Assembly: GCF_900114765.1 (NCBI RefSeq)
Contig: NZ_FOUD01000004.1
Location: forward strand, 62,001-126,000
Length of the DNA: 64,000 nucleotides
Source of the DNA: Halopseudomonas pachastrellae
GTDB taxonomy: Bacteria > Pseudomonadota > Gammaproteobacteria > Pseudomonadales > Pseudomonadaceae
Direction of reading: 5' to 3'
Of this stretch, positions 19,453 to 25,024 are shown piece by piece. Made by a program: the position numbers and the translations under genes. The notes beneath the pieces are model-generated. The model was not told the origin of the DNA, made no database searches, and saw only the letters and a list, made by a program, of their open reading frames with translations. How positions within the stretch are numbered: position 1 is the first letter of the stretch; the number at the start of each line of letters is the position of its first letter.

Positions 19453-20715
19453 ATGAATTCAGTTGTCACCCGCCTGTCCCGCCGCCTGCTGCTGCCGTTG
19501 ATGTTTGGCTGGAGCAGCTTCGCTTTTGCTGCCGACCCCATAGCCCTTGGTATGAACTTGCCGCGAACCGGCCAGTACGCCCAGGAGGGGCTGATGCAGA
19601 TGCGCGGTGCGCTGCTGGCCGTGGAGGAAATCAATCAAGCCGGTGGCGTGCTGGGGCGCCCGCTGGAGCTGCTGGAGCGCGATTCGGCCTCGAACCCTGA
19701 GCGTGCGCAGCGCAACGTGGATGAGCTGGCGGGTGAAGGGGCGCGGATGCTGTTTGGTGGTGCCTCCAGCGCGGTTGCCATCGCTGCCGGGCAGCGCGCC
19801 CGCGAGCGTGGCCTGTTGTACTTTGGCACCCTTACCTATTCCAACGACACGACCGGCGCGGCCGGTCATCGCTATATGTTCCGCGAGAGCTACAACGCTT
19901 GGATGGCGGCGCGGGTATTGTCCGCCCAGCTGCAGGAGCAGTTTGCCGGCAAGCGTTATTACTATGTGACCGCCGATTACACCTGGGGCCACAGCACCGA
20001 GCAGTCGATGCGCCACTTTACCGACACGGCGTCCGCCGAGGCCCATGGCGCGACCCTGGTACCTTTCCCCAACGCGTCGCTGCGTGAGCTGCGCGAGGCG
20101 TTGCAAAAAGCCAAGGACGCGGAGCCGGAAGTGCTGGTGCTGGTGCTGTTTGGTGAGCAGATGGTCAAGGCCATGGGCATCGCCCGGCAGCTCGGCTTTG
20201 AGAACGTGCAGATCGTGGTGCCCAATCTGACGCTGAGTATGGTGGAGCAGGCAGGCCCGGCGGTTATGGCCGGGGTTATGGGGGCAGTGCCCTGGGCCTG
20301 GAACGTGCCGCAGCAGTTTGGCTATGCCCGTGGCGAGGCCTTTGTTAGTGACTTTGCCGCACGCTATGAAACCTATCCTTCCAGCTCTGCTGCCTCGGCG
20401 TACAGCATCGTCTATCAGTGGGCGGATGCGGTCACTCGTGTTGGCTCGCTGGACAGCGAGGCGCTGATTCGCGCGCTGGAAGGGCACAGCTATGAGCTGC
20501 TGAAAGACACGCAGACCTGGCGAGCCTTTGATCACCAGAACCTGCAAACGGTCTACGCCGTGCGCATCAAGCCACGCGCCGAGGTGATGGCAGACCCGCT
20601 GCGTCAGGACTATTTCGAGATTCTGGGCTCGCTGCCCGGCGAGCAGGCCGCGCAGACACTGGAGCAGTGGCAGGAGGTGCGCCGCGCGGCCGGTCAGCCG
20701 CTGCGGTTGCAGTAA
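19453..20715 (+). CDS. Periplasmic substrate-binding protein (branched-chain amino acid/amide type)
   Basis: A Peripla_BP_6-type solute receptor of 420 residues. The signal peptide (RLSRRLLLPLMFGWSSFAFA, cleavage near AFA-AD) is followed by IALGMNLPRTGQYAQEG and the two-lobe fold with ERDSASNPERAQRN and FGGASSAVAIAAG. AAGGA lies nine bases before the ATG at 19453. No permease or ATPase gene is adjacent, so it may serve a distant transporter or a sensor. Substrate unknown. Confidence 0.88.
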   Translation: MNSVVTRLSRRLLLPLMFGWSSFAFAADPIALGMNLPRTGQYAQEGLMQMRGALLAVEEINQAGGVLGRPLELLERDSASNPERAQRNVDELAGEGARMLFGGASSAVAIAAGQRARERGLLYFGTLTYSNDTTGAAGHRYMFRESYNAWMAARVLSAQLQEQFAGKRYYYVTADYTWGHSTEQSMRHFTDTASAEAHGATLVPFPNASLRELREALQKAKDAEPEVLVLVLFGEQMVKAMGIARQLGFENVQIVVPNLTLSMVEQAGPAVMAGVMGAVPWAWNVPQQFGYARGEAFVSDFAARYETYPSSSAASAYSIVYQWADAVTRVGSLDSEALIRALEGHSYELLKDTQTWRAFDHQNLQTVYAVRIKPRAEVMADPLRQDYFEILGSLPGEQAAQTLEQWQEVRRAAGQPLRLQ

Positions 20716-20739
20716 AGCGTGCTTGGCTGCTGACGGCGC

Positions 20740-21759
20740 CTAGAAACCCTGCGCCGCCAGCAGTGTGGCGATCTGCTCAAGGGCGGGGATGTCCTGCACG
20801 TCGGTCTCCAGCCAGGGAAGCTGTGGGCGCGGTAGCGCTGCGAAGGAGGCCTCGATCTGTTGCAGGTACTGCGCCTCCTGATCGCGGCGGCGCTGCAAGA
20901 AGGCGCCATCGGCGTCGGCCGGAATAACCCGGTTGACCAGGGTGGCGACCACCGGAATACCCGCCTCACCCAGCGCCTGTACCGCGCGCTCGGTCTCCAG
21001 AATCGGTAGCTTCTCCGGCGTCAGCACGAACATGAAGCCGCTCTGGGCCGGATCTTCCAGCTGGCGGCGGGCCTGATGAAACAGGCGGCGCCGGGTGCGC
21101 AGGGTATCGGCAATATCCCGGCTGCGGCGGTCCAGGCCACTGAGCTGATCCTCGTTTGGATCGGCCAGCGGGTTAGCCACGTCACGCCCGCTGCGCGGGG
21201 TCAGGTGTTGCAGTACCTTGCTCAGCTCGGCTGACTTGCGGTTGTGGCTGAGCAGTCCGTCGGTCCAGGCGGCCATCGCTTCGGGCAGTGTAAGCAGCCG
21301 CAGGGTGTGGCCGGTGGGCGCCGTATCAAAGATGATCAGGTCGTAATCGTCCGGCGGCGCCGTTACCAGCCGCGCGATGCGCTCCAGCAGTGCCGCCTCC
21401 TGGGTGCCGGGCGAGTGCCGGGTCAATTGCATCTGACGCGTCAGTTCCTGCAGCATCTCTGGTGCGGCCAGTTTGCGCATCTGGTCGATGACGCGGGCCA
21501 GGTGAGCGTCCACCTCGGCATCGGGGTCAATCTCCATGGCATCGAGGTTGGGCAGCAGGCGGCGCGGGCTGTCATCGAGCGCTCGGGCAAAGACATCGCC
21601 CAGGCTGTGGGCCGGGTCGGTGGACACCACCAGGCAGCGTTTGCCGCGCTGGGCGGCAAGCACGGCGAGGGCGGCTGATACGCTGGTTTTGCCCACGCCG
21701 CCCTTGCCGCCGACCCAGATCAGGCGGCGCTCAAGCAGGTTGGATAGATCGGTGGAAAT
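20740..21759 (-). CDS. ArsA/Get3-family ATPase with probable ATT start
   Basis: P-loop ATPase of the anion-pump/tail-anchored-targeting class: deviant Walker A GGKGGVGKT, switch I VSTDPAHSLGD, switch II IIFDTAPTGHTLRLL. The only standard start is a GTG inside the P-loop, which would destroy it. Reading back in frame to the TAA of the preceding gene, ATT at 21759-21757 has GGGAG seven bases before it and gives 339 residues beginning M-S-T-D-L-S-N-L-L-E-R-R-L-I-W-V. The arsenite-binding cysteines of ArsA are missing, so an arsenic pump is unlikely. Follows the cory-CC-star gene. Confidence 0.85.
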   Translation of the reverse strand: MSTDLSNLLERRLIWVGGKGGVGKTSVSAALAVLAAQRGKRCLVVSTDPAHSLGDVFARALDDSPRRLLPNLDAMEIDPDAEVDAHLARVIDQMRKLAAPEMLQELTRQMQLTRHSPGTQEAALLERIARLVTAPPDDYDLIIFDTAPTGHTLRLLTLPEAMAAWTDGLLSHNRKSAELSKVLQHLTPRSGRDVANPLADPNEDQLSGLDRRSRDIADTLRTRRRLFHQARRQLEDPAQSGFMFVLTPEKLPILETERAVQALGEAGIPVVATLVNRVIPADADGAFLQRRRDQEAQYLQQIEASFAALPRPQLPWLETDVQDIPALEQIATLLAAQGF

Positions 21760-21771
21760 AACGGTTCTCCC
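21757..21771 (-). promoter_or_regulatory. Shine-Dalgarno and ATT initiation site of the ArsA-like gene
   Basis: GGGAG at 21771-21767, seven-base spacer, then ATT at 21759-21757. The TAA of the upstream gene (21777-21775) is in the same frame, six bases before the Shine-Dalgarno. No ATG, GTG or TTG lies between that stop and the P-loop. CTG at 21738 is a weaker alternative without a ribosome-binding site. Confidence 0.6.
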
Positions 21772-21774
21772 GTT

Positions 21775-22056
21775 TTAGCAGCAACGAAAATGGTCGAGCG
21801 GCGAGTGCTCCATGCCCATGCGTCGGTGCCAGTCGTGGAAGCGCTCAAGCAGCAGCGGTTGCAGCTCCAGCGTGTAGTAGGCCGCCGGATTGGGCACGCC
21901 CATCATTTCGCCGAACACCAGCAGCATGAACAGGTCATCGTGGTCCCGGCGACTGCGGGCAATGGCGCCGCGATAGCGCGCGCTGTAGCTCTCTTCGAGA
22001 AAGAAGCGAGCCTGGCTCAGCCAGGCCCGCCAGTTGTCGCTGCGCTTAGTCGGCAT
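21775..22056 (-). CDS. cory-CC-star family small protein
   Basis: A 93-residue basic protein whose last two residues are Cys-Cys directly before the stop, the hallmark of the cory-CC-star family. The core has FFLEESYSARYRGAIARSRR, LFMLLVFGEMMGVPNPAAYY and FHDWHRRMGMEHSPLDHF. Function is unknown. Its start overlaps the end of the cstA-like gene by eleven bases, and the ArsA-type ATPase follows. The partners suggest a membrane-linked complex or a client or adaptor of the ATPase (inference). Confidence 0.85.
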   Translation of the reverse strand: MPTKRSDNWRAWLSQARFFLEESYSARYRGAIARSRRDHDDLFMLLVFGEMMGVPNPAAYYTLELQPLLLERFHDWHRRMGMEHSPLDHFRCC

Positions 22057-23731
22057 CGGGCTGTTCCGCTGCGGCCAGCGCCCGGTGGCGTTTTAGCGCC
22101 GCCGCGCACTCCAGCGCCACCAGAATCGCCGCTACCAGTACGACTATATCCAGCCCCAGCAGGAAGTAGTTTTCCTGTGCATAGAAGGTCTTGAGCTGCA
22201 GCACCAGGGCCAGCACGGTCATCAGCAGCAGGAAGCACAGCGGCAGCAGGGTGTACCACATGGGGCGGCGCATGTGCACCAGCATGACGGTGATCACCAG
22301 GAGCGTCAGGCCAGCCAGCAACTGGTTGGTGGTGCCAAACAGCGGCCAGATAATCATGCCGCCGGAGCCGTCTGCACCGCCGGCACCAAAGGCCAGCAGC
22401 AGGCAGGTGCCGATGGCCAGCAGCGTGGCTGGCAGCGGCTTTTTCATCCAGGGCTGGTTATAGATCTCGCCCCATTCCTGGAAGATGTAACGCTGCAGGC
22501 GCAGACCGGTGTCCATGGTGGTGCCGGCGAACAGCGCAGCCATGACGGTCAGCAGCGTTGCTGCTGTAACCTGTGGCAGACCGAGGCCGTTGTGGATCAC
22601 GTAAGCGCCGCCCTCAACGAAAGCTGTGACACCGCCCTGACCGAAGGCCGAGTACATGGCCTTCCAGTCTGCCAGGCTGGCAAAGCCGGCGCAGGCGACC
22701 AGAATCGCTGCCAGTGACAGGCAGCCTTCGCCGATGGCGCCGAAGTAACCAACAAAGCGGGCGTCGGTTTCCTTGTTCAGCTGCTTGGAGGTGGTGCCGG
22801 AGGCGACCAGCCCGTGGAAGCCGGAAATGGCCCCGCAGGCAATGGTGACGAACAGCAGTGGCAACAGCGACGGCGTGCCGGCCGGCACATCATTGTTGAT
22901 CATCGGGGCTACCAGCACCGGGTTGAGCAGCGCGATGGCGCCATAGAGGATCAGCAGACCAACAAACAGCTGCAGGCCGTTGATGTAGTCACGCGGCTGA
23001 AGCAGCATCCACACCGGCAGGACCGAGGCGATGCCGGCATACAGGAACAGCAGCAGAATCCACACCGCGTTGCCGGACATGCCGGCCACCTCGGCGGGCA
23101 TCTGAATCGGCACGCTGGGGCCAGCCCAGATCAGCGCATACAGCGCGACCACGCCGATCACCGAGACCACCGGCAGGCTGACGATGCGGCGATAGATCAA
23201 CTGGCCGACGATCAGGGCCACGACGATGGCGCCCCACACCGGCAGCACCGCAGTAGGGAAGTTCATCATCAGCTTGGCGATCACTACGGCGAATACCGCG
23301 TTGACCATCAGCAGCACCAGGAAGATGACGATCATGAAAATGCTGCGCGCGCGCTTGCCGACCACGTCGCCGGTCAGCGAGCCGACCGATTTCGCCTTGT
23401 TGCGCACGCTGGCCCAGATGGCGCCCATGTCGTGCACGCCAGCGAAGAAGATGGTGCCCATCACAACCCAGAGAAAGGCCGGCAGCCAGCCCCAGATAAC
23501 GGCAATGGCCGGACCGACGATAGGCGCGGCGCCGGCAACCGAGGTGAAATGGTGGCCCCAGAGAACAAAGCGGTTGGTCGGGACGAAGTCGATGCCATCT
23601 TCGAATTCGTGCGCCGGAGTGCGAAAGTCCGGGTCAAGGCGGTAAATACGCTGGGCGATAAAGCGTGAGTAGATGAGGTACCCGAGGGACATCATTACCA
23701 GCCCGATCAGCAGAAGGATCGCTGCGCTCAT
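22046..23731 (-). CDS. CstA-family carbon starvation transporter
   Basis: A 561-residue multispanning inner-membrane protein of the CstA family, whose members import pyruvate or peptides. The N-terminal signature NRFVLWGHHFTSVAGAAPIV and VVMGTIFFAGVHDMG are diagnostic, along with AISGFHGLVASGTTSKQL and IIWPLFGTTNQLLAG. It is shorter than E. coli CstA (about 700), as in the second subfamily. First of three overlapping or abutting genes with cory-CC-star and the ArsA-like ATPase. Confidence 0.92.
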   Translation of the reverse strand: MSAAILLLIGLVMMSLGYLIYSRFIAQRIYRLDPDFRTPAHEFEDGIDFVPTNRFVLWGHHFTSVAGAAPIVGPAIAVIWGWLPAFLWVVMGTIFFAGVHDMGAIWASVRNKAKSVGSLTGDVVGKRARSIFMIVIFLVLLMVNAVFAVVIAKLMMNFPTAVLPVWGAIVVALIVGQLIYRRIVSLPVVSVIGVVALYALIWAGPSVPIQMPAEVAGMSGNAVWILLLFLYAGIASVLPVWMLLQPRDYINGLQLFVGLLILYGAIALLNPVLVAPMINNDVPAGTPSLLPLLFVTIACGAISGFHGLVASGTTSKQLNKETDARFVGYFGAIGEGCLSLAAILVACAGFASLADWKAMYSAFGQGGVTAFVEGGAYVIHNGLGLPQVTAATLLTVMAALFAGTTMDTGLRLQRYIFQEWGEIYNQPWMKKPLPATLLAIGTCLLLAFGAGGADGSGGMIIWPLFGTTNQLLAGLTLLVITVMLVHMRRPMWYTLLPLCFLLLMTVLALVLQLKTFYAQENYFLLGLDIVVLVAAILVALECAAALKRHRALAAAEQPDAD

Positions 23732-23782
23732 GGGGTGGGGCTCCTGTGCGGTTGGGTCTTGTTTTAAGGGCGTGCCTTTGTC

Positions 23783-24247
23783 TCAGGCAAGCCACCCACC
23801 ACTATAGTTCAGCGCGGCGGCAGTGGGTCTACGACTAATGTCTAGAAGCCACAGGCCGCAACCAACCATCAAACCGCCCCCGAGTTTGCGCGCGGCGGGC
23901 TGATTCAGTGGTCTGGACAGTCGGCTGCCGAGCACCGCGTATAAACCCTTGACCAGCAACAGCGCGGCTGCAGTGGTATCCAGTACCTGCAGACACAGCA
24001 GCGGTGACAGTGGGGCGCTGATAAATAGTGGGAAGAAGCTGGCATAAAACACCAATGCCTTGATATCGCCCAGGGTCAGCATCAGACCGGCCAGCAGGCT
24101 TGTGTGCAGGCTGCCGGTGACGGCGGGTGTTGAGCGTGCTGCTGGTCGGCTGCGCCAGAGCGTCCAGCCAAACCAGATCAGGGCGTCGCCGGCATCGGCT
24201 GGCAGGTCTGTGTCGCAGCACTCGCAGTTGGGGCGTAGTTGCAGCAT
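23783..24247 (-). pseudogene. Chimera of a DUF1272 start and a LysE-family transporter end
   Basis: From the ATG at 24247 the 154-residue frame begins MLQLRPNCECCDTDLPADA, the opening of the small Cys-rich DUF1272 protein. At about residue 24 it passes into WFGWTLWRSRPA, the mid-region of a LysE/RhtB amino acid exporter, and continues with its C-terminal helices (LGDIKALVFYASFFPLF onward). The zinc-binding second half of DUF1272 and the first half of LysE are missing. An in-frame deletion joining two neighbouring genes explains this best; it is probably non-functional. Confidence 0.75.
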
Positions 24248-24361
24248 GGCAGATTCCGGTTTTGGAGTTATTCGCTGTTTTAGCAGCGGCTGATGCGCTG
24301 TGAAAGCCGGCTGGCAAGGGTGTACGCTGAGCACTGACTTTTGACTGATGCGAGCAAGCCC

Positions 24362-25024
24362 ATGCAAAGCCTGACCATTGATATCGTTTCCGACATTGCC
24401 TGCCCCTGGTGCGCCATCGGCTACGCCCGCCTGGAACGGGCGTTGACCACGCTCAAAGGTGAGATTGAGGGGCAGGTTGAGTGGCATGCCTTTGAACTCA
24501 ACCCGGATCCGAACCAGCAGCCCATGCCCATCGTCGAGGCACTGTCGCGTAAGTACGGCCGCAGCGAAGCTGAAATGCGGGCGGCGCAGGACAACATGAT
24601 CCGTATCGCCACCGATCTGGGGCTGAACTTTGCCCACATGCAGGAACGCAGCACCGCCAACACCTTTGATGGGCATCGGCTGGTCAAATGGGCGGCCGAG
24701 TATGGCCGACAGACGGCGATGAAGCAGGCATTGTTTGATGCCTACTTTGGCGAGGCAAAAAACGTCAGCGATAAAGACGTATTGCTGGAGGCGGTGCGCG
24801 CGGCAGGGCTGGATGCGGCAGAGGCCGAGCAGGTGCTGGACAGCGACCGCTTTGCCGACATCGTGCGCGCCGATGAGGCCAAGTGGCAGCAAGCCGGTAT
24901 CTCGTCTGTGCCGGCCTTTGTGATCAATGGCCGATATTTGATCTCGGGTGCGCAGGAGCCGGACTATCTGGTGCAGGCGTTGCGCGAGATTGCCCGGCAG
25001 GACGCCGAGGGCGCCTCCGCCTGA
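24362..25024 (+). CDS. DsbA-family oxidoreductase, FrnE-like
   Basis: A thioredoxin-fold protein of 220 residues with the active-site motif CPWC in DIACPWCAIGYARLE, a helical insertion, and the cis-Pro region ISSVPAFVINGRYLISGAQ. FrnE-type members are cytoplasmic disulfide isomerases or polyketide-associated oxidoreductases, and no signal peptide is present here. Start chosen at the ATG at 24362; an in-frame TTG seven codons earlier is less likely. Confidence 0.9.
   Translation: MQSLTIDIVSDIACPWCAIGYARLERALTTLKGEIEGQVEWHAFELNPDPNQQPMPIVEALSRKYGRSEAEMRAAQDNMIRIATDLGLNFAHMQERSTANTFDGHRLVKWAAEYGRQTAMKQALFDAYFGEAKNVSDKDVLLEAVRAAGLDAAEAEQVLDSDRFADIVRADEAKWQQAGISSVPAFVINGRYLISGAQEPDYLVQALREIARQDAEGASA

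Follow-up and report, generated by a model that had tools for sequence, protein, structure and literature searches.

A CstA-family permease with a Cys-Cys-ending small protein and a Get3/ArsA-type ATPase in Halopseudomonas pachastrellae: a variant of a known CstA arrangement

The closest described systems for the locus considered here are found in Escherichia coli, where ybdD follows cstA, and yjiX and the GTPase gene yjiA follow btsT; a Klebsiella plasmid is annotated with the btsT-yjiX-yjiA order too, which was also seen in 5 of 14 YbdD loci of the present analysis. Pyruvate uptake in E. coli reportedly drops to 13% when cstA is deleted, to 20% when ybdD is deleted and to 25% when both are (PMC5847655), so that the effects of cstA and ybdD are not additive. 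Where a substrate has been reported for CstA-family proteins, they import pyruvate or peptides (PMC5847655, PMC7730263). A CstA of Desulfovibrio, 32% identical to YjiY, is described as having a pyruvate-specific phenotype (PMC10102598). In some Epsilonproteobacteria, a selenocysteine has been predicted as the last residue of DUF466 (YbdD family) proteins, which the authors took as a sign of redox activity (PMC4607533), and this points to chemistry at that end of the protein. Here, we describe a locus in a stretch of 64,000 nucleotides from Halopseudomonas pachastrellae (contig NZ_FOUD01000004.1, positions 62,001 to 126,000; hereafter the window), where a CstA-family permease gene is followed by genes for the small cory-CC-star protein (Cory), which ends in Cys-Cys (CC), and for a Get3/ArsA-type ATPase. 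Cory and this ATPase are inherited together, absent together and associated with one clade of CstA, and we rate the trio as a variant of the known arrangement of CstA plus a CC-ending protein. The features of the locus, with positions counted in the window, are as follows:

22046-23731, minus strand: open reading frame (ORF) of the CstA-family permease, 561 residues, PF02554
21775-22056, minus strand: Cory, 93 residues, NF041419
21778-21783, minus strand: terminal Cys-Cys codons of Cory, followed by TAA
20740 to about 21759, minus strand: single-domain Get3/ArsA-type ATPase, 339 residues if the ATT start is right, TIGR00345
21757-21759, minus strand: likely non-standard start codon ATT of the ATPase, with no ATG, GTG or TTG upstream in frame
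21767-21771, minus strand: Shine-Dalgarno-like GGGAG, 7 nucleotides before the ATT

The permease matches PF02554 in a Pfam search with an E-value of 6e-138 and 461 bits (gathering threshold 27) and is about 31% identical to E. coli CstA by tblastn, while Cory reaches 133.3 bits against NCBIfam NF041419 (cut-off 80) and the ATPase 243.9 bits against TIGR00345, GET3_arsA_TRC40 (cut-off 135). The start of the Cory gene overlaps the cstA stop by 11 nucleotides, and this overlap, together with the coordinates, bears out the statement of a first-pass annotation of this DNA that the three genes are packed on one strand. A single CstA and a single over-cutoff Get3/ArsA-type protein were found in the host genome, with no YbdD-family match at E<=1. 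When compared with three relatives, all three genes have a nonsynonymous rate well below the synonymous rate.

As in the E. coli CstA-YbdD system, in which YbdD is needed for uptake, a CstA permease here stands next to a small CC-ending protein; however, YbdD is not detectably homologous to Cory, the E. coli CstA belongs to a long clade, and no ATPase lies beside cstA-ybdD. The likeness to btsT-yjiX-yjiA extends to the third gene, as permease, CC-ending small protein and P-loop NTPase come in the same order, but the third gene of the window encodes a Get3-type ATPase as opposed to the G3E-type GTPase YjiA of E. coli. Presumably, both of these NTPases belong to the SIMIBI class. The C-termini of the YbdD family are CC in 11 of 13 rows and CPC in the other two, three of the 14 order-sample loci having given no row. 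Judged from sequence, each of the two clades of CstA is thus accompanied by its own CC-ending protein and its own kind of P-loop NTPase, the two small proteins being unrelated. The suggestion in the first-pass annotation that the trio is an undescribed system stands in part: the families and their names are already at NCBI, which names the cory family and annotates the trio, while no paper on 'cory-CC-star', and none pairing 'ArsA family ATPase' with 'carbon starvation protein', was found in the open-access literature, most subscription papers lying outside this scope.

The first Cory loci numbered 87, comprising seven from a phylum sample (the window included) and the nearest 80 of at least 557 confirmed relatives. 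CstA, Cory and the ATPase are encoded in the same order and on the same strand in all 87, a count that is biased to near kin because 80 of the loci are the nearest of those relatives. In an order sample of 194 genomes searched with four models (Cory, PF04328, CstA and Get3/ArsA), Cory was found in 20, PF04328 (YbdD/YjiX) in 13, CstA in 49 and an over-cutoff Get3/ArsA-type protein in 22. An over-cutoff ATPase lies beside Cory on the same strand in all 20 Cory genomes, and the two remaining over-cutoff ATPase genomes (G138, G531) have two-domain ArsA. CstA is likewise present in all 20, with the two-piece or short match; 14 genomes have it beside the pair, and in six (G433, G489, G536, G556, G464, G514) it lies on a different contig while Cory keeps the ATPase as its neighbour. 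The phylum sample of 398 genomes, whose Cory set shares four genomes with that of the order sample, yielded Cory in seven, each with adjacent ATPase and CstA. Over-cutoff Get3/ArsA-type proteins occurred in 18 of the 398, namely the seven Cory genomes and 11 others, of which ten have two-domain ArsA and one (G184) has a fragment that groups with ArsA first halves.

These counts support the conserved unit proposed in the first-pass annotation, and the rare joint occurrence that would speak against such a unit was not seen in the 194 order and 398 phylum genomes. The tightness of the trio is another matter, since Cory and the ATPase are adjacent in every Cory genome of both samples but CstA persists without the pair in several lineages. 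Because CstA is off locus in 6/20 genomes and a subclade keeps CstA without the pair, Cory and the ATPase are an inseparable pair and CstA is its usual third member. The trio also occurs on plasmid records of Paracoccus, Pseudochrobactrum and Cytobacillus (the three regions read, among six plasmid records matching Cory), and the NCBI annotation of these regions names all three genes. An extra ORF of about 95 residues with no Pfam or NCBIfam match lies between CstA and Cory in Cytobacillus (L097, 4630-4917). The 13 YbdD genomes of the order sample are exactly those with a long E. coli-type CstA, found as a full-length single match in 12 and in pieces at contig ends in G475; YbdD and the long CstA are on different contigs in G425, and G536 holds both the Cory and the YbdD systems.

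A first tree of 47 CstA proteins contains a YbdD-linked clade (support 100/100) and a clade (100/99) that unites all Cory-linked CstA, adjacent or not, with four CstA from Cory-less genomes, and the window CstA is a member of this short Cory-linked clade. In a second tree of 53 rows, six long or odd rows of the first tree (two plasmid CstA and four short-type CstA) were dropped and twelve added, from 12 of 20 newly fetched loci. In this tree, eight Cory-less CstA form one subclade (93/92) inside the Cory-linked clade (97/92), nested among lineages where CstA had left the operon. The genomes of these eight rows are also without an over-cutoff ATPase, G455 having a weaker relative, and the six CstA of an outer group (family labels f39 and f72) have neither Cory nor the ATPase. 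The type of small protein thus largely follows the CstA clade, and Cory and the ATPase come and go together. On the simplest reading of the trees, the pair was gained once, became separated from cstA once and was lost jointly once. A third, shorter type of CstA (L206-L209, about 480-490 residues) forms its own clade, with no CC-ending ORF in the stretches read.

The 93-residue length of Cory and its Cys-Cys directly at the stop codon, as given in the first-pass annotation, were confirmed in the window, and the CC end was found in 112/112 extracted Cory ORFs. Six of these are a second fetch of the same genes, leaving 106 loci, and 104 distinct DNA sequences were counted among 111 of the ORFs. 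Since the CC end occurs in 0/1084 other predicted ORFs of at least 90 residues in 83 of the Cory neighbourhoods, the CC ends of Cory are more than chance. In 30 non-redundant Cory rows, the invariant residues are the two His and the Trp of an HxWH motif, the Arg and Gly that follow, and both Cys. No membrane helix was found in Cory (maximum KD19 1.18), and it is therefore not a tail-anchored client; its AF2 (AlphaFold2) model has helices at 4-34, 39-51 and 59-79, with a mean pLDDT (predicted local distance difference test) of only 63.6. Cory matched no Pfam model at E<=1, PF04328 (YbdD/YjiX) included. Homology between Cory and YbdD was also tried by hhalign and rejected, as the probability was 0.7% and the score, at 13.2, was one that shuffled controls also reach (mean 10.6, best 18.4, or mean 11.8 and best 15.2 when the CC end was left in place).

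The explanation that we tentatively favour, while giving it somewhat less than an even chance, is that a CstA-type secondary transporter is here served by an ATP-dependent accessory pair made up of Cory and the ATPase. Cory, soluble and helical, would assist CstA in the way that YbdD/YjiX serves the E. coli-type clade, and the Cys-Cys end would be its working end, a thiol/disulfide or metal site that may include the invariant HxWH histidines. The ATPase, presumably dimeric like other Get3 proteins, would bind Cory as a client, and ATP would be used to load Cory on CstA, to release it from CstA or to recharge it for CstA, such that substrate uptake would be switched or matured, and not energised, by ATP. 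By analogy with other CstA proteins, our guess for the substrate is pyruvate or a similar small carboxylate or peptide. The idea in the first-pass annotation that the ATPase handles Cory fits the pattern of co-inheritance, and a role in gating or assembly of the transporter is what we infer. In a bolder version, which we find doubtful, two CstA clades would each have acquired, from unrelated sources, a CC-ending protein and an NTPase of the Get3/G3E kind, with the ATPase charging or resetting the tail of Cory and so switching the symporter. If true, symporters that are serviced by an NTPase and activated by a thiol-tipped protein would form a new class, and Cory would be, to our knowledge, the first non-tail-anchored client for a bacterial Get3 relative. 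We know of no client for most bacterial Get3/ArsA-type ATPases without an arsenic function, and here, in one genome after another, such an ATPase goes with a 93-residue protein whose chemical end is invariant and with a family of transporters whose class of substrate can be measured. Both the question of its client and the role of the Cys-Cys end, in YbdD/YjiX as well, are directly testable in a small operon, where CstA relatives with versus without the pair offer a clean comparison.

Instead, the ATPase could target or insert CstA itself, or some other membrane protein, in the manner of Get3 and with Cory as its adaptor, which we consider unlikely. The fold and motifs are indeed like those of Get3/TRC40, including archaeal Get3: the P-loop, switch I and switch II are intact in 18 aligned copies, the AF2 model (mean pLDDT 79.5) is closest to archaeal and yeast Get3, with archaeal 3zq6 at the top, and a sequence-profile ranking places algal ArsA1 and archaeal Get3 first. 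Get3 homologues have been reported from many families of purple bacteria, and a hydrophobic motif is described as conserved in Get3 and Get3d, unlike in ArsA (PMC10248533). In the Cory-linked ATPases, however, the corresponding segment is polar instead of hydrophobic, the 30 residues after switch II/LPE averaging 28% V, I, L, M, F, W or C in 41 of the 44 ATPases (three were missed by the pattern) versus 47% in two archaeal Get3. No Cys column exceeds 50% among the 44 non-redundant Cory-linked ATPases, and hence the CXXC zinc motif of Get3 is absent, a motif that is also described as missing in some true Get3 (PMC10248533). Moreover, Cory has no hydrophobic tail to be targeted, CstA is polytopic, and close relatives of CstA exist with neither partner. 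In arsenite efflux, ArsA is accompanied by the ArsB permease and the thiol protein ArsD. A permease, a small CC protein and an ATPase of the ArsA family are also side by side in the window, such that Cory might be an ArsD-like thiol carrier, the ATPase an ArsA and CstA the channel of an arsenic-operon-like metal or metalloid pump, and the Cys residues that are not conserved in the ATPase could be supplied by Cory. We regard this as very improbable, since the ATPase has one domain of about 339 residues, unlike the two-domain ArsA, and stands apart from both ArsA halves in a tree that includes 24 of the 44 ATPases (100/99); the permease is also a different one, and CstA-family proteins with a reported substrate are importers of pyruvate or peptides (PMC5847655, PMC7730263). 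At the alignment place of two ArsA cysteines, all 44 copies have xPG, the third place being outside the alignment, and the absence of arsenite-binding cysteines given in the first-pass annotation holds as far as tested, with Gly at two of the three ArsA places and no conserved Cys. Because it has no conserved Cys and no Get3-like hydrophobic segment while its nucleotide motifs are intact, the ATPase, on its sequence, does not fit the role of an arsenite pump motor or that of a standard factor for tail-anchor targeting.

Another view would separate the pair from the transporter altogether, with Cory and the ATPase as a cellular thiol/metal-handling pair of their own that lies beside CstA by chance in most genomes. 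The six of 20 genomes in which the pair is intact and CstA is elsewhere would agree with this, but every Cory genome, 20 and 7 in the two samples, has a CstA, those CstA that are in the trees belong to one clade, and, among families found in at least eight loci (the 35 largest listed), none besides the trio occurs in more than two of 12 distant loci; we therefore hold it to be distinctly unlikely. A further described comparison is with the mycobacterial BagA/BagB (Rv3679/Rv3680), which are also bacterial Get3/ArsA-family ATPases (weak matches) and have been linked to glycerol and nitric oxide tolerance (PMC10597346); unlike the Cory-linked ATPases, they form separate NCBIfam families, and the window ATPase is far under their cut-offs.

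Several observations weigh against the favoured accessory pair of Cory and ATPase, or against parts of the history drawn for it. Cory and YbdD are without detectable sequence homology, such that transfer of function from one to the other rests on position and the CC end, and a fold search with the Cory model, itself weak, gave no match at E<=0.001. The GTPase gene was found in only 5/14 YbdD loci (at most 1.5 kb read on each side). CstA was found in 156/398 phylum genomes (E<=1e-60) as compared with Cory in seven, and, as eight CstA in the Cory-linked clade are without the pair, the pair would not be needed for every such CstA. Where the pair has been lost, CstA is hardly altered, at two columns (none in a control clade), and these two changes are hypotheses at most. 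The Cory-less subclade has a support of 93/92 only, one joint loss would not be the only possible history, and G455, one of the genomes without the pair, is 86% complete; both G455 and G424 have sub-cutoff Get3-like proteins without Cory. The enterobacterial CstA of G374 has no YbdD beside it and, in the second tree, groups with the YbdD clade on a long branch. The ATPase of Haloferax mediterranei, also on a long branch, falls among the Cory-linked ATPases in the tree, which leaves a single origin of these ATPases unproven. Finally, CstA and the ATPase are each broken into two ORFs in L066, and in G530 the match of the ATPase contains a TAA.

The start of the ATPase gene calls for a correction, as the ORF list places it at GTG 21696, inside the P-loop, and there is no in-frame ATG, GTG or TTG between the Cory stop and the P-loop. 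The likely start is the ATT at 21757-21759 behind GGGAG. At the matching place, ATT is found in L008, L009, L010 and L022 and ATC in L013, with GGAG 7 or 8 nucleotides before it in all five relatives; L008 has an additional in-frame TTG eight codons downstream of the ATT, and other relatives have an ATG nearby. The ATT/ATC start seems to be a feature of several Halopseudomonas-group genomes. Such start codons are rare, and the non-standard start could hold expression of the ATPase low. A sigma-70 promoter scan of 20500-24400 found nothing. Six terminator-like sites were counted in the region versus 2.1 expected, among them a hairpin of 12 pairs at 22005-22031 (minus strand), within the 5' part of the Cory gene, which may be chance in coding sequence.

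A third family of CC-ending proteins was sought beside Cory-less CstA in four order-sample and 20 further loci and rejected, as there were few CC-ending ORFs and none was plausible; a CC-ending neighbour was absent at the CstA of a Halostella plasmid and at one of Acetoanaerobium. Also among the haloarchaea, Haloferax volcanii gave a control match that stayed under the cut-off. Beside two Cory-less CstA (L234, 1602-2771, and L237, 2054-3247, both minus strand), there is a protein of about 390 residues, permease-like by eye, with Cys-Cys a few residues before its C-terminus. Many Halomonas loci have genes upstream of cstA on the opposite strand (for example L014, 2628-5065, and L015, 639-3401, both minus strand), the families being an exonuclease-domain protein in 45 loci, a response regulator in 34 and a histidine kinase in 26; one example of each was domain-scanned, that of the histidine kinase having an SSF part, and these genes hint at carbon-source control. 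In lineages whose cstA lies outside the operon, the gene after it encodes a protein of about 580-600 residues (L193, 6893-8683; L195, 6618-8363), of which the L193 copy has a weak, sub-threshold match to AhpC/TSA (redoxin).

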